The notes under the pieces are model-generated. The model worked only from the letters and a program-made list of their open reading frames with translations. It did not search any database and was not told where the DNA came from. From NCBI GenBank assembly GCA_030651905.1, contig JAUSBS010000116.1:1-40486 (forward strand): 40,486 nucleotides of DNA, given 5' to 3'. This document shows positions 1 through 34,122 of this stretch, in pieces. The position numbers were made by a program, and so were the translations under genes. Origin of the DNA: Coriobacteriia bacterium. Its GTDB lineage: Bacteria > Actinomycetota > Coriobacteriia > Anaerosomatales > PALSA-660. Within the stretch, counting starts at the first letter, position 1. Every line of letters begins with the position of its first letter.

Positions 1-2
1 TG

Positions 3-1016
3 CGGACCATGGTCGATGAGGCGAAAGCGCTCGTCGAGACGGACAAGTCGGTGTTGTGCCTGCTTGCGGACGGAGGGCCCGGGCCGCGCATCGACGATGG
101 CGCGATCTTCGTCCGCGGGCGACGCGATCAGTACCCGGAGACATGGTGGCGTGCCCAGATCGAGGAGGCGACCGCGTCGACGATGGAGCGCAACGCTCCG
201 TACGTCGCGGCCAAGGACGGTGCCTGGATGCTCACGGTCCCGGTCAAGATCAAGGGGCGGGCGATCGGCGTACTGGCGGCGATCAACCCACGCGCCCGGC
301 CCTTCCGGGAAGACCAGGTGTCTCTCATGGCCGTGCTCGGCGCGTTCGCGGGGATCGCCATCGAGAACTCGCGTCTGCACGAGCAGGCGAGTTATGCGCT
401 GCTGGCTGACGAACGAAGCCGGATCGCCAAGGACATGCACGACGGCCTCTCGCAGCAGCTCTTCAGCGTCTCGCTCGAGCTCGACGTGTGCAGGAAGCGC
501 CTGCGGAGCAGGCCGGACGAGGTGGAGCGGCGTCTCGAGCGACAGCAGGCCGTGGTCGTTCGCAGCCTCAGCGAGTTGCGACGCTACATCTACGACCTTC
601 GCCCGCTCAGTCTGGACCGACTCGGCCTCGCCGCAGCGATGCGGATGCGCGTGATGGAGATCAGCGAGGCGGCCGGGATCGCGGGCCGGCTTCAGGTCGA
701 TGGCGCCTCTCGCCGGTTGCCGCCGGGGGTGGAGGCGTGCCTCTACCGCGTGGCGCAGGAGGCGGTCAGTAACGCCGCCCGTCATGCCCAGGCATCGCGC
801 GTCATCGTCACGCTCCGATTCGGTGCGTCGACCGTGCTCATGGTCGTCGAGGATGATGGGATCGGCTTCACGAGCAGGGACCGCGACGTCGCCAGCGACT
901 CCGACTCGGGGATGGGGCTGGCCAACATGCGGGATCGCGTTGCCGCCGAGGGCGGGTCCCTGGATGTCGTCAGCGGCGATTCCGGCACGACCGTGACCGT
1001 GGACCTCCCATGCTGA
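3..1016 (+). CDS. NarL-type sensor histidine kinase with GAF domain (5' truncated)
   Basis: This is a two-component sensor kinase whose beginning lies before the window; the frame is already open at base 3, so the ATG at 9 need not be the start. Counting from that ATG, residues 1-125 look like the end of a GAF domain. A HisKA_3 dimerisation segment follows, with the H-box RIAKDMHDGLSQQL and phospho-acceptor His144. The C-terminal HATPase domain shows the N-box (AQEAVSNAARHA), a G1 box (DDGIGF) and a G2 box (GMGLANMRDR). No membrane segment is visible in the part present, so it may be cytosolic. It overlaps the next gene, a LuxR-type response regulator, by 7 bases, which makes them a cognate pair. 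The signal sensed cannot be read from the sequence. Confidence 0.9.
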   Translation, partial: RTMVDEAKALVETDKSVLCLLADGGPGPRIDDGAIFVRGRRDQYPETWWRAQIEEATASTMERNAPYVAAKDGAWMLTVPVKIKGRAIGVLAAINPRARPFREDQVSLMAVLGAFAGIAIENSRLHEQASYALLADERSRIAKDMHDGLSQQLFSVSLELDVCRKRLRSRPDEVERRLERQQAVVVRSLSELRRYIYDLRPLSLDRLGLAAAMRMRVMEISEAAGIAGRLQVDGASRRLPPGVEACLYRVAQEAVSNAARHAQASRVIVTLRFGASTVLMVVEDDGIGFTSRDRDVASDSDSGMGLANMRDRVAAEGGSLDVVSGDSGTTVTVDLPC

Positions 1017-23062: not shown

Positions 23063-23683
23063 ATGCGCTTCTTCCGCATAGGCGACAAGATCGTCTCCCG
23101 CGAGAAGCTCGTCGAGCAGATCACCGGCATCCTGCGCGACCGTGAGCGCGGCGCGACGCAGGCCGACACCGCGAAGTCCCACGGCGTCGAGCGCTCCTTC
23201 GTCTCGTGGCTCGAGACGCTCGGCGAGGTGCGCCGCGGCCGCCGGGTAGGGCTCATCGCGTTCCCGGTGGCCAACGGCGACGAGGTGCGCGCGCTCGCGG
23301 AGGCGCACGGCGTCGAGTTCCTCCTCGTGATGTCGCAGTCCGAGCGCGAGTCGCTCGAAGGCTCGCCCGGCGACCAGGTCTTCAACCGCGTGCTGGACAC
23401 GCTCGCCACGCTCAAGGACTTCGACGTGCTCGTACTCCTCGCCTCGGACTGGCGTGTGGGCACCATCGAGAAGATCCTCGGCCGCGAGGTGGTGGCCCTC
23501 ACGCTCGGCCCCTCACCGCTGAGGCACGACGTCGTCGTCGACCTCGCGCAGCTCGACGACATCCTCGACGGAGTCACCGCTCCGGACATCGACACTGCCA
23601 CGACGAAGGCGCGCTCCTCGGCCCGGGCGAAAGCCGGCGAGCTGCTGCGCACAACCGGGAGGTGGACGCGATCAAAGAAGTAG
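23063..23683 (+). CDS. HTH-domain protein, likely transcriptional regulator
   Basis: The 206-residue protein has a helix-turn-helix near residues 30-52 (GATQADTAKSHGVERSFVSW). An alpha/beta region follows, with RRVGLIAFPVANGDEVRALA and GVEFLLVMSQ. It ends in a Thr/Ala/Arg/Lys-rich tail. I recognise no named family for the C-terminal part; it may bind a ligand. The ATG at 23063 is preferred; an ATG at 23018 would place the palindrome inside the gene. It overlaps or abuts the next gene and so likely forms a two-gene operon. The palindrome in front suggests it controls its own promoter. Confidence 0.7.
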   Translation: MRFFRIGDKIVSREKLVEQITGILRDRERGATQADTAKSHGVERSFVSWLETLGEVRRGRRVGLIAFPVANGDEVRALAEAHGVEFLLVMSQSERESLEGSPGDQVFNRVLDTLATLKDFDVLVLLASDWRVGTIEKILGREVVALTLGPSPLRHDVVVDLAQLDDILDGVTAPDIDTATTKARSSARAKAGELLRTTGRWTRSKK

Positions 23684-24588
23684 TGAGCGTCTCGATAGGC
23701 TCGTCCAAGCGCGACCACGAGGTGGAGGTCGACCTCTTCGGCGAGACGTTCAGGATCCGTCGCGAAGGCACCGACGGTGACATGGCCAAGGCGGTCGAGC
23801 GCTTCCGCGAGCTCGACGGCAAGGTCGCGGCGTTCGGACTGGGCGGCATCGACCTCTTCCTGTCGGCCGTGGGCCGCGACTACTACCTGCGCGACGCGAA
23901 GCGGTTCCGCGACGCTGCCAAGATCACGCCGATCCTCGACGGTACGGGGCTCAAGGGTGCTGTCGAGGCCGACGTCGTGCGCTTCATGCGCGAGGACCTG
24001 GGGCTCGACCTCGCCGGCAAGCGCGTGCTGTCGACCTCGGCGCTGGACCGCGCCGGCATGACCGAGGCCTTCTACGACGCAGGCTGCAAGGTGACGGCCG
24101 GGGACCTGCTCTACGCGCTCGGGATCGACATCATGATCCACGACCGGGCGACTCTGCACCGCGTCATCCGCACCATCGCGCCGATCGCCGTCCAGCTGCC
24201 GATCACCTGGCTCTACGACGCCGAGGCGGACCACACCACCGAGGTCAAGGGCGCGACCAAGCACGCACACCTCTACCACGACAACGACATCATCGCGGGC
24301 GACTACAAGTGGGTCCGCAAGTGGATGCCCGAGGACATGAGCGGCAAGTGGGTCATCAGCAACACGACCACGGCCGAGGACGTCGAGTTCCTGCGCTCGC
24401 GCGGCGTCGAACTGCTCATCACGTCGACGCCGCGGCTCGAGGGCCGCTCGTTCGGCACCAACGTCATCGAGGCGACGATGGTCGCGCTCGATGGAGCATC
24501 CGGGCGACTCTCCGGCGAACGCTATCTGGAGCTGATGCGCAGCGTCGGCTTCAAGCCCGACGTGCAGTGGCTCCAGCGCGGCGCGTGA
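23662..24588 (+). CDS. conserved protein, often annotated quinate 5-dehydrogenase
   Basis: The protein is about 300 residues long and, from memory, resembles proteins labelled quinate 5-dehydrogenase in Firmicutes and actinobacterial genomes; that name rests on little evidence. Visible features are VVSVSIGSSKRDHEVEV, GTDGDMAKAVERFRELDGKV, FGLGGIDLFLSAVGRDYYLR and a Rossmann-like KRVLSTSALDRAGMTEAFYD. The end contains LLITSTPRLEGRSFGTNVIE. The start is uncertain: GTG 23662 touches the ribosome site GGGAGG (23657-23662), GTG 23683 has a poor site, and ATC 23671 would be ideally spaced and give MKEVVSVSIG. It is coupled to the HTH gene. No quinate or shikimate genes are nearby. Confidence 0.65.
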   Translation: MDAIKEVVSVSIGSSKRDHEVEVDLFGETFRIRREGTDGDMAKAVERFRELDGKVAAFGLGGIDLFLSAVGRDYYLRDAKRFRDAAKITPILDGTGLKGAVEADVVRFMREDLGLDLAGKRVLSTSALDRAGMTEAFYDAGCKVTAGDLLYALGIDIMIHDRATLHRVIRTIAPIAVQLPITWLYDAEADHTTEVKGATKHAHLYHDNDIIAGDYKWVRKWMPEDMSGKWVISNTTTAEDVEFLRSRGVELLITSTPRLEGRSFGTNVIEATMVALDGASGRLSGERYLELMRSVGFKPDVQWLQRGA

Positions 24589-24613: not shown

Positions 24614-24643
24614 GTGGCGACTAGGCACGGCGGATGCTACACT
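24614..24643 (+). promoter_or_regulatory. ccmE operon promoter
   Basis: GTGGCG (24614-24619), an 18-base spacer and TACACT (24638-24643) with an extended TGC form the likely promoter. It has the same spacing as the hemA promoter (TTGGCG-N18-TAGGAT). Confidence 0.55.
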
Positions 24644-24650
24644 CACCAGC

Positions 24651-24680
24651 GTTCAGGCAAGCGGGCAGGAGCGGTGCGTC
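24651..24680 (+). promoter_or_regulatory. leader element shared with hemA
   Basis: GTTCAGGC begins 7 bases after the -10 (about +1) and GTGCGTC follows at 24674-24680. The hemA promoter region has the same two motifs at nearly the same spacing. The first 12 bases, GTTCAGGCAAGC, are also exactly complementary to 32652-32663 in the hemA leader. It could be an operator at the start site or part of a structured RNA. Confidence 0.5.
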
Positions 24681-24772: not shown

Positions 24773-25447
24773 ATGAACAACCGCGCACGCAACAGGCTCA
24801 TCGGCGTCACCGTCATCATCCTCGGCATCGCGGCCGCCGTGTTCTTCGGCTCCGGCGCCGGGACCGGTGCCTACACCAAGACCGTCGACGAGGCCGCCAA
24901 CGACGCCTCGCTCGTGGGCAAGCGCATCAAGGTGTCGGGCAGCGTCATCGCGGGCTCATGGGACAAGAAGACCAACCCCATGAAGTTCCGCATCCGCACC
25001 GAAGGCAAGACCTCCGGTCCCGAGATCGCGATCGTCTACACCGGTGCGGCGCCGAACACGTTCGGCAACGACACCGTCGCCATCGTCACGGGCACGCTCG
25101 AGTCCGGTGGCACCATGAAGGCCGACGACATGATCACGAAGTGCCCCTCGAAGTACTCCTCGGGCACCGGCGCGATCACGGTCACCGAGCTGCTCAAGGC
25201 CCAGGCCAAGGCGCAGCCCATCCAAGTCGTCGGCTATCTCAAGGCGAAGTCCCTCAACCTCGAGGGTCAGGGCACCGAGCGCTTCGTCCTGACATCGACG
25301 CCGACCGGGGGCGACGAGATCAGCGTCCAGTTCGCCGGGTCCATGCCTGCCGGCACCGTGGACGGCGTACAGCTCGTCGTGGGCGGGGAGTATGATTCGA
25401 CGGGGGTCGTCGCGGCAAGCAGCGTGGCCCGCCTCGCAAGCAAGTAG
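24773..25447 (+). CDS. ccmE: cytochrome c maturation protein CcmE, Cys-type with second OB-like domain
   Basis: CcmE is the heme chaperone of System I: it binds heme covalently and passes it to CcmF. The 224-residue protein has an N-terminal membrane anchor (about 8-28). An OB-fold domain (about 37-128) ends in Cys124-Pro-Ser-Lys-Tyr128. Standard CcmE has His in place of this Cys; the CxxxY form is known in archaea and Desulfovibrio. Normal CcmE proteins have about 140-160 residues; here residues 133-224 look like a second OB copy (EISVQFAGSMPAGTVDGVQL against EIAIVYTGAAPNTFGNDTVA) without the Cys/Tyr motif. A GTG at 24761 is an alternative start, with GAAGGAG at 24752-24758. It heads the ccm cluster. 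Confidence 0.88.
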   Translation: MNNRARNRLIGVTVIILGIAAAVFFGSGAGTGAYTKTVDEAANDASLVGKRIKVSGSVIAGSWDKKTNPMKFRIRTEGKTSGPEIAIVYTGAAPNTFGNDTVAIVTGTLESGGTMKADDMITKCPSKYSSGTGAITVTELLKAQAKAQPIQVVGYLKAKSLNLEGQGTERFVLTSTPTGGDEISVQFAGSMPAGTVDGVQLVVGGEYDSTGVVAASSVARLASK

Positions 25448-32552: not shown

Positions 32553-32582
32553 TTGGCGGTTTGGAGCGCGCGATGCTAGGAT
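32553..32582 (+). promoter_or_regulatory. hemA operon promoter
   Basis: TTGGCG (32553-32558), an 18-base spacer and TAGGAT (32577-32582) with an extended TGC form the likely promoter, 178 bases before the preferred hemA ATG. The layout equals that of the ccmE promoter. Confidence 0.6.
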
Positions 32583-32589
32583 TGCTCTC

Positions 32590-32688
32590 GTTCAGGCGGA
32601 TAAGCAGGGAAGTGCGTCCATAGTGTGTTTCACATCGCCCTCGCCGGGCCTGCTTGCCTGAACAACATGCACTGCTCCGGCGAGGGCG
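32590..32688 (+). promoter_or_regulatory. structured hemA leader, candidate pseudoknot
   Basis: Stem 1 pairs 32590-32597 with 32656-32663 (8 bp) and 32602-32608 with 32649-32655 (7 bp), separated by a 4-base bulge GGAT. Stem 2 pairs CGCCCTCGCCGG (32636-32647) with its exact complement at 32677-32688 (12 bp). The order 1a-2a-1b-2b is that of an H-type pseudoknot, with only one base between 2a and 1b. A small hairpin (TGTG-TTT-CACA, 32624-32634) lies in the first loop. It begins at the expected transcription start, and no known riboswitch consensus was recognised. Confidence 0.6.
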
Positions 32689-32760
32689 TACCTATGCCCA
32701 AGAGACGTGGCCGATCCGGCCGCGGATGCGCTTCCCAGCGAGGAGCCTGACGGCGAGCAC

Positions 32761-34122
32761 ATGCACCTGACCCTGGTCGGACTCAGCCACAAGACAGCCC
32801 CGATCGAGATCCGCGAGAAGCTCACCTTCCCCGCGCATCGACAGGCCGACGCGCTGTCCGACCTCATCTGTGGGGTCCAGGTATCCGAAGCGGTCATCCT
32901 CTCGACGTGCAATCGCACGGAGATCTACGCGGTCACCACGGGAGCGCAGGACGGCGTCGATGCCGTCATCGACTTCGCCTGCGGCCACCATGGACTCGAC
33001 CGGGCCCAGCTCGAGCCCTACCTCTACGTCTCGCAGGGCGACGCCGTCGTCCGCAACCTGTTCCGCGTCGTGGCGTCGCTCGACTCGAAGGTCGTGGGCG
33101 AGGCCCAGATCCTCGGCCAGGTCAAAGAGGCCTACGACCACTCGTTCGCGAACGGCGCCGCCGGTCGCGTCTTCAACAAGCTGTTCCGCCAGAGCTTCGA
33201 GGTGGGTAAGCGGGTGCGCTCCGAGACCGCGATCGGGGAGGCGGCCGTCTCGATCAGCTACGCCGCGGTCGAGCTGGCGCGCAAGGTCTTCGACACGCTG
33301 GCCGGACGCACCATCCTCGTGCTGGGTGCCGGCAAGATGAGCGAGCTCACCGCGAAGCACCTGGTATCGCAAGGCGTGCACAGCGTGCTCGTGGCGAACC
33401 GCACGTATGAGCGCGCGGTCGAACTCGCCGAGAGATTCGAGGGCGAGGCGATCCGCTACGACGACCTCTTCACCCGCATGCGTGATGCCGACATCGTCAT
33501 CTCCTCGACCGGCGCGACGCACTACGTCGTTCATCGCGCGGACGTGGCCGGGGTCATGCGAAAGCGCTCCGGGCGGCCGCTCTTCCTCATCGACATCGCC
33601 GTGCCTCGCGACATCGAGCCTGCGGTCAACGAACTCCGTGACGTCTTCCTCTACGACATCGATGACCTGAGCGGGGTCGTCGAATCCAACCTCGAGGACC
33701 GTCAGCGCGAGGCGCGCCAGGCGCAGGTCATCATCGACGAGGAGTTCCGCGCGTTCGAGGCGTGGCTCGAGTCGATGGAGGTCGTCCCGACGATCGCCGC
33801 CATCCGCGCGAAGGCCGAGTCGCTGCGTACCGAGGAGCTGGACCGGGCGCTGAAGCGGCTGGACGGACTGTCCGAGAAGGACAGGGCCACGGTCGAAGCG
33901 CTCTCGCAAGCGATCGTGAGCAAGATGCTGCACGGTCCGACGGCGCGGCTCAAGAGCGCTGCGGCCGAGAAGGACGGGTACCAGTACGTGGACACCGCCC
34001 GCCGCCTCTGGGGGCTCGACGCGGACGGGGAGCGGGCGAAGCGCGCGCATGGTCTGCGCGGGCTGCTGCGCCTTCCCGAGAAGCCGCGCAAGGACGAGAC
34101 GGGAGAGGGACTTGGCAGCTGA
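32761..34122 (+). CDS. hemA: glutamyl-tRNA reductase
   Basis: HemA reduces glutamyl-tRNA to glutamate-1-semialdehyde with NADPH, the committed step of tetrapyrrole synthesis. From the ATG at 32761 the protein has 453 residues, starting MHLTLVGLSHKTAPIEIREK as family members do. The catalytic Cys50 is in ILSTCNRTEIYA. The NADPH site is ILVLGAGKMSELTAKHL, and the C-terminal dimerisation helices follow (about 320-430). A GTG at 32707 is also in frame, and AGGAG lies 15 bases before the ATG, so the start is not fully settled. The long structured leader suggests control before or during translation. It overlaps hemC by 11 bases. No hemL is in the window. Confidence 0.95.
   Translation: MHLTLVGLSHKTAPIEIREKLTFPAHRQADALSDLICGVQVSEAVILSTCNRTEIYAVTTGAQDGVDAVIDFACGHHGLDRAQLEPYLYVSQGDAVVRNLFRVVASLDSKVVGEAQILGQVKEAYDHSFANGAAGRVFNKLFRQSFEVGKRVRSETAIGEAAVSISYAAVELARKVFDTLAGRTILVLGAGKMSELTAKHLVSQGVHSVLVANRTYERAVELAERFEGEAIRYDDLFTRMRDADIVISSTGATHYVVHRADVAGVMRKRSGRPLFLIDIAVPRDIEPAVNELRDVFLYDIDDLSGVVESNLEDRQREARQAQVIIDEEFRAFEAWLESMEVVPTIAAIRAKAESLRTEELDRALKRLDGLSEKDRATVEALSQAIVSKMLHGPTARLKSAAAEKDGYQYVDTARRLWGLDADGERAKRAHGLRGLLRLPEKPRKDETGEGLGS

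Follow-up and report, generated by a model that had tools for sequence, protein, structure and literature searches.

A conserved hairpin loop complementary to the 5′ end of the ccm operon transcript suggests an RNA link between heme synthesis and heme attachment in Coriobacteriia

Why do two operons, one for attaching heme to cytochromes and the other for starting heme synthesis, carry the same pair of short motifs immediately behind their promoters? The question is raised by a 40,486-nt stretch of DNA from a member of the Coriobacteriia (the window), in which a ccm-hem cluster runs on the + strand in the order ccmE, ccmF, ccmA, probable ccmB (without a Pfam match), ccmC, and genes for a CcsB-like cytochrome c assembly protein, a siroheme-synthase NAD-domain protein and a short-chain dehydrogenase, followed by hemA, hemC and hemD. 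The genes and inferred promoters concerned are as follows:

24614–24643, + strand: inferred ccmE promoter (GTGGCG, 18 nt, TGC-TACACT), assigned from sequence by its −10-like hexamer
24773–25447, + strand: ccmE coding sequence, gene 1 of the ccm cluster (Pfam CcmE; two CcmE domains, with two domain matches in the home genome, G000)
32553–32582, + strand: inferred hemA promoter (TTGGCG, 18 nt, TGC-TAGGAT), a layout conserved in relatives
32761–34122, + strand: hemA coding sequence (glutamyl-tRNA reductase; Pfam/NCBIfam), followed by hemC and hemD

A tandem CcmE with two CcmE domains is found in nearly all class members searched. Directly upstream of ccmE lies a 460-aa reading frame (23206–24588) for which searches of Pfam and NCBIfam at E 0.001 gave no match; a C-terminal sequence like its own also precedes ccmE in genomes of families f17 and f21.

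At ccmE, GTGGCG (24614–24619), 18 nt and TACACT (24638–24643) are followed by 7 nt, GTTCAGGC (24651–24658), 15 nt and GTGCGTC (24674–24680), and at hemA, TTGGCG (32553–32558), 18 nt and TAGGAT (32577–32582) are followed by 7 nt, GTTCAGGC (32590–32597), 14 nt and GTGCGTC (32612–32618). TGC precedes both −10 hexamers and AAGC lies between the two motifs at both genes, all exactly where the first-pass annotation had placed them. GTTCAGGC by itself is ordinary (32 matches with at most one mismatch vs 33.5 expected); the composite, with 10–20 nt between GTTCAGGC and GTGCGTC, is found at two sites in the window, where shuffles predict 0.00, and these sites are the only ones in the whole 1.88-Mb genome. 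A sigma-70 consensus scan (spacer of 16–18, 9/12) called neither the ccmE nor the hemA promoter. A TANNNT −10-like hexamer stands 6–8 nt before GTTCAGG at ccmE in all 67 genomes with both parts of the element described below, and it is this conserved spacing that places the inferred +1, with both motifs at or just after the inferred start in two functionally linked leaders, as had been supposed. The motifs are kept in relatives, so that the idea survived a check for their absence there. The important clue proved to be a further point of that annotation, namely, that GTTCAGGCAAGC (24651–24662) is the exact reverse complement of positions 32652–32663, downstream of the hemA promoter.

These antisense positions belong to a conserved structured RNA that occupies the hemA leader (32590–32688), the core of which is a hairpin (32636–32688) with a loop of ~29 nt containing CCTGCTTGCCTGAAC. 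The segments of the leader, and those of the ccmE leader that match it, are the following:

32590–32608, + strand: hemA segment A, GTTCAGGC(GGAT)AAGCAGG, a cis copy of the ccm 5′ end that pairs with A′; degenerate in G040 and G054
32611–32617, + strand: hemA segment C, AGTGCGT, pairing in cis with C′; three of the seven helix C pairs are changed on both sides
32636–32647, + strand: hairpin 5′ arm B, CGCCCTCGCCGG; 11 of 12 pairs covary across the class
32649–32663, + strand: loop segment A′, CCTGCTTGCCTGAAC, antisense of the ccm 5′ end and near-invariant, with the exact antisense 15-mer in most of 61 genomes
32667–32675, + strand: loop segment C′, ATGCACTGC, from the alignment and the helix and trans-pairing comparisons
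32677–32688, + strand: hairpin 3′ arm B′, CCGGCGAGGGCG, from the alignment and the helix and covariation comparisons
24651–24665, + strand: ccmE segment A, GTTCAGGCAAGCGGG, the first 15 nt of the inferred transcript, forming 15 pairs, one of them G-U, with hemA A′
24671–24679, + strand: ccmE segment C, GCGGTGCGT, forming nine pairs, two of them G-U, with hemA 32667–32675

Among 61 related genomes, in which hemA was located in 60, the leader follows one layout: a −10-like hexamer, ~7 nt, GTTCAGGC (A), GGTGCGT (C) and a variable linker, and then CGCCCTCGCCGG (B), CCTGCTTGCCTGAAC (A′), AACA, ACGCACC (C′) and CCGGCGAGGGCG (B′). When helices A-A′, C-C′ and B-B′ were imposed together on an alignment of 58 hemA leaders, 93.9% of the cells were paired, vs 35–43% with the partners slid by 1–3 columns, and seven pairs across the three helices had changed on both sides. 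Class-wide, in 34 sequences, helix B was 99% paired with 11 of 12 pairs covarying and was matched by 0 of 500 shuffles; this alignment was fitted to helix B, and the sliding control (46–56%) is therefore the weightiest figure. The hairpin is thus almost certainly a conserved RNA structure, as judged from its comparative pairs. The order A C B A′ C′ B′ makes the helices cross on paper; in the order Anaerosomatales, strands AC, C′B′ and BA′ could be present together in a pseudoknotted three-way junction, with AACA and the linker closing it. RNAalifold recovered helix B, a pseudoknot being beyond its representation, and the minimum free energy fold of the hemA leader alone, a different long-range fold, was set aside because the comparative pairs contradict it. 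An alternative in which arm B would pair with the hemA Shine-Dalgarno region was considered and, on inspection, is not conserved.

Several features around the hairpin stand apart from its three helices. A short conserved box, approximately [AT]CCYWTGYC, follows the 3′ arm in most Anaerosomatales (32689–32700 in the window) and is left unexplained by them. Four hemA leaders of family f20 (L257, L259, L260 and L261) have an extra covarying hairpin just 5′ of the conserved one, in which GTCA...TGAC closes GCAAAG/CTTTGC, GCAGGG/CCCTGC or GCGGAA/TTCCGC. In G064 (L260), the 3′ arm GAGGGGG, 11 nt before the ATG, could itself be the hemA Shine-Dalgarno sequence, which the stem would sequester.

The first-pass annotation had treated the two leaders as copies of one promoter-plus-leader architecture, a view that did not hold: hemA has the full pseudoknotted RNA, whereas ccmE has only the loop-complementary strand, GTTCAGGCAAGCRGG...GCGGTGCG, beginning at the inferred +1 and without a copy of the leader. 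No hairpin was found in any readable ccmE leader (ccmE was located in 58 of 61 genomes), and the ccmE leader showed no unusual fold (z 0.41). GTTCAGG lies 6–8 nt after the −10 in nearly every one of these leaders, usually followed by ARGCRGG...GCGGTGCG, and all carriers among the genomes sampled are Coriobacteriia. Across the 61 genomes, the 15-mer GTTCAGGCARGCRGG occurs almost exclusively as a pair, sense at ccmE and antisense in the hemA leader, the other isolated sites being two, one each in G010 and G037; the reversed-pattern control gave none. The mean energy of pairing with A′ was −29.3 kcal/mol for ccmE +1..20, −22.0 for hemA's own segment A and −11.0 for ccmE +51..70, and the ccmE strand beat hemA's own strand on the loop in 50 of 53 genomes. 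In each of the 67 genomes with both parts readable, the first 9–15 nt of the ccm transcript can pair with the loop without interruption, over the full 15 nt in 38 of them. The pairing comprises these first nucleotides plus a box near +20 to +30; the Shine-Dalgarno region lies downstream, outside it.

Matched changes in the ccmE leader and the hairpin loop support direct pairing between the two. For segment C, the partner from the same genome fits better than partners from permuted genomes (p=0.0004), a result that holds in 100% of draws of one genome per family; the same test for segment A is not significant (p=0.075) because this segment barely varies. Matched swaps are seen in G010 (C′ CGCACTGC with ccmE GCAGTGCG), G026 (CGCACCAAT with ATTGGTGCG) and G050 (CGCACCGTC with GACGGTGC), and in all three, the bases flanking CGCACC pair with ccmE and not with hemA's own segment C. 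Within family f20, G064 and G084 have the loop TACCTGAAC and the ccmE start GTTCAGGTA, where T-A replaces C-G, and wobble intermediates of this change are found in G080, G086 and G088. Taken together, these comparisons argue that pairing of the loop with the ccm 5′ end is very probably under selection.

A covariance model built from the 58 leaders and later refined was searched in 400 Coriobacteriia genomes and identified the element in 74, namely, 65 Anaerosomatales and nine members of families f17, f20 and f21. In these nine, the stem sequence is largely different yet paired and the loop core is kept, and all nine ccmE leaders begin GTTCAGG[CT]A after a −10. The hairpin is the 5′ leader of hemA in Anaerosomatales, f17 and f20, whereas in f21 (G070, G078 and G082) it follows ccmC at the 3′ end of the ccm operon, with a clear U-tailed intrinsic terminator after it in G078 and G082 and none seen in G070. 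The sole feature conserved from f21 to Anaerosomatales is the first 9–10 transcribed nucleotides, outside the ribosome-binding site. No GTTCAGG was found within 530–680 nt upstream of the hairpin in five f20 and three f21 genomes; in these eight, with no 5′ copy beside the hairpin, the loop is thus kept for the ccm 5′ end and not for cis pairing. The loop is likewise kept in G040 and G054 despite their degenerate cis copy. A hemA +1 carrying GTTCAGGC is restricted to Anaerosomatales and one f17 genome, G061, in which this promoter start lies 120 nt 5′ of the hairpin.

Where the element is missing, both parts tend to be missing. Neither is present in G021 (99% complete), in which the gene order is otherwise kept, in f20 genus g46 (G066, G068 and G074) or in 16 genomes of eight other families, all with ccmE. 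The one-sided cases are G002 (91% complete), with the hairpin and the cis copy and ccmE not found; G072, with the ccmE tag on a contig that ends before the expected hairpin; and G015 (65% complete). In G021 (L263), the only Anaerosomatales genome to have lost both halves, the end of a GGDEF-domain-like frame falls between the dehydrogenase gene and hemA, just before the latter. The g46 ccmE leaders (L322, L323 and L324) have a different conserved 5′ motif, TTGTTGACCGAAGRCGTGYG; the idea that this genus swapped both halves together was rejected, as the motif has no exact antisense in the ~20 kb downstream of ccmE in G066, where hemA was not found. Weak model matches in families f19 and f22 (E 4e-5 to 0.04) were also discarded, the five inspected being without features of the element. 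A lone 3′ half serving elsewhere as an independent sRNA gene was sought in a genome-collection scan returning one site per record, whose matches in Duganella, Pseudochrobactrum, Aestuariibacter, Anaerofilum and one member of the Pseudomonadota are attributable to chance.

What would such an arrangement do? The explanation we favor, to which as a whole we assign a probability of roughly 60%, is a two-part RNA clasp. One part would be the very first nucleotides of the ccm operon transcript, with GTTCAGGYA... at +1, usually extending to ~15 nt plus the GCGGTGCG box; the other, the hairpin that lies 5–8 kb farther along the same strand, within the hemA leader or, in f21, at the 3′ end of the ccm operon, the loop of which is antisense to the first. 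With its first 9–15 nt tucked into the loop, the 5′ terminus would be shielded from decay of the pyrophosphohydrolase/RNase J type, so that ccm transcripts would be stable only together with hairpin-bearing RNA, be it the complete ccm-hem transcript or a hemA transcript acting in trans. Cytochrome c maturation would thereby be tied to the operon with which heme synthesis begins.

A 5′ terminus held in a duplex is resistant to pyrophosphate removal and to the entry of RNase J. It is on this ground, and because an mRNA-mRNA pair in Listeria blocks RNase J1, that protection of the 5′ end is put forward as the mechanism, at what we judge to be slightly less than even odds. In that precedent, the hly 3′ UTR pairs with the prsA2 5′ UTR of Listeria monocytogenes and stabilizes the target (Ignatov et al. 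2020; reviewed in PMC8406224 and PMC8079631). As these accounts describe it, the hly-prsA2 case also joins two functionally linked mRNAs, with pairing at the distal 5′ UTR; similarly, the ccm transcript is predicted to pair at its 5′ end, from inferred nucleotide 1 in 67 of 67 genomes. Unlike hly-prsA2 as so described, the ccm partner is a conserved hairpin loop, pairing begins with the first transcribed nucleotide, matched mutations are seen in several families within one class, and a mimic of the target is present at hemA itself; stabilization by the hairpin is a proposal here. ccmE and hemA are always ~5–8 kb apart on one strand, so that pairing in cis, within one long mRNA, and pairing in trans leave the same trace here. 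In icaR of Staphylococcus aureus, the 5′ and 3′ UTRs of a single transcript also pair over a long distance; the duplex there includes the Shine-Dalgarno region and becomes a substrate for RNase III (Ruiz de los Mozos et al. 2013, PMC3868564), whereas the Shine-Dalgarno region is outside the ccm pairing.

The main rival to 5′-end protection, and a rather unlikely one, is negative feedback, in which RNA from the hairpin region (hemA leader RNA or, in f21, a 3′-UTR-derived sRNA) would pair with the ccm 5′ end and repress the operon in the manner of OppZ and CarZ. These autoregulatory 3′-UTR-derived sRNAs of Vibrio cholerae inhibit translation of their own transcripts (Hoyos et al. 2020, PMC7398697), so that autoregulation of this kind has a precedent, and the f21 layout, with the hairpin at the operon 3′ end and then an intrinsic terminator in G078 and G082, is that of a 3′-UTR-derived sRNA. 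As with OppZ and CarZ, RNA from the end of an operon could pair with the operon's own mRNA, here through 9–15 uninterrupted pairs that begin at +1 in all 67 genomes and show matched changes among the genomes compared. The target differs, however: it is the 5′ terminus, upstream of the Shine-Dalgarno region, and not the ribosome-binding site, and the hairpin is mostly the 5′ leader of the next gene. What is conserved is the first 9–10 nt of the transcript; in f21, the pairing (+1..+10) lies ~25 nt before the start codon in a leader of ~35 nt, and a duplex of 9–10 bp is short for RNase III.

It is less probable still that hemA is the target, its leader toggling between two partners, its own 5′ copy in cis and the ccm 5′ end in trans, such that the level of ccm mRNA would set hemA expression. 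The cis and trans strands do compete for one loop, the trans strand being the stronger in those 50 of 53 genomes, and in Anaerosomatales, f17 and f20, hemA follows the leader directly. Against this, the f21 hairpin is at the ccm 3′ end, with no second copy found in f21 genomes, the f20 leaders are without the cis strand, and no conserved anti-Shine-Dalgarno or terminator arrangement was found.

That the hemA leader is a riboswitch for heme, a precursor or glutamyl-tRNA, with ccmE sharing part of the aptamer, is highly improbable. The leader is indeed a structured and conserved RNA (93.9% paired, with covariation above controls), with a compact pseudoknotted junction and loop nucleotides that hardly vary, placed ahead of the committed step of tetrapyrrole synthesis; yet the invariant nucleotides are accounted for by complementarity to the ccm 5′ end, ccmE lacks the hairpin, the cis strands are absent in f20 and f21, and there is no Rfam match. 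A structured leader with a possible second role in trans, on the 5′ UTR of another mRNA, recalls SreA of Listeria, a trans-acting SAM riboswitch that acts as a terminated transcript (Loh et al. 2009, as summarized in PMC8079631); in that summary, SreA is a SAM riboswitch by family, whereas the hemA leader is without a known ligand or terminator. A common DNA-binding regulator at GTTCAGGC/GTGCGTC is already contradicted, since the shared 8-mer at the same promoter position in hemA, ccmE and a third operon of some families is outweighed by matched ccmE/loop changes, stem covariation and conservation of the loop without a nearby 5′ copy, all of which call for RNA pairing and none of which a DNA-binding protein would require, and by an antisense copy that lies inside a hairpin loop and not in a promoter. 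Of the proposed co-control of ccmE and hemA by an operator or leader RNA, then, the RNA link between the leaders stands and the operator falls, with the proviso that f21 has its hairpin at the 3′ end of the ccm operon and not at hemA.

The third operon, itself conserved, encodes a small membrane protein starting MSDQDFFFDEDE and a TPR protein with weak CcmH/CycH similarity (L161, L162, L163, L164 and L177; in the home genome, G000:C68, L204). In families f2, f15 and f6 only, it has GTTCAGGCARG at or near +1, sometimes followed by GGTGCG, and by this sequence it is a possible extra member of a tag regulon; an unlinked operon with the same tag, weak as this evidence is, would favor action in trans. 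Returning to the clasp, its variants can tentatively be joined in one reading, which we consider possible and rather doubtful: a loop at the far end of a 5–8 kb polycistronic mRNA would catch the first nucleotides of that mRNA, leaving only hairpin-complete transcripts stable, the hemA start would later have evolved the same 5′ tag for shorter transcripts, and the third, unlinked and possibly cytochrome-related operon would have done likewise in some families. If true, this would make the system a modular 5′-end tag regulon and not a single UTR-UTR pair.

Pairing between untranslated regions is already known from hly-prsA2, icaR and OppZ/CarZ; what is new is the RNA family, its class-wide location, the transcription-start terminus as the target and the mimic of the ccm 5′ end in the hemA leader. 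At the Rfam 15 gathering threshold, the window yields only a tRNA, the leaders searched at E up to 10 give chance matches, and six relative loci give none; searches of open-licence papers retrieved no description of a ccm 5′-end/hemA-leader element. The comparison thus points to a previously undescribed connection, at the RNA level, between the production and the use of heme, and the element defines an RNA family missing from Rfam 15. Few bacterial mRNA-mRNA interactions are known, most of them from one species, and the matched mutations in several families may provide an evolutionary benchmark. Pairing from the first transcribed nucleotide also yields a clear prediction, that accessibility of the 5′ end controls the life of a long operon mRNA. 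In Anaerosomatales, the two cultivated strains of which encode 17–18 multiheme cytochromes (PMC9686372), the element would link heme attachment to the committed step of heme synthesis; in this class of anaerobic soil, sediment and subsurface bacteria, the very start of the messenger for attaching heme to cytochromes fits a distant RNA loop.
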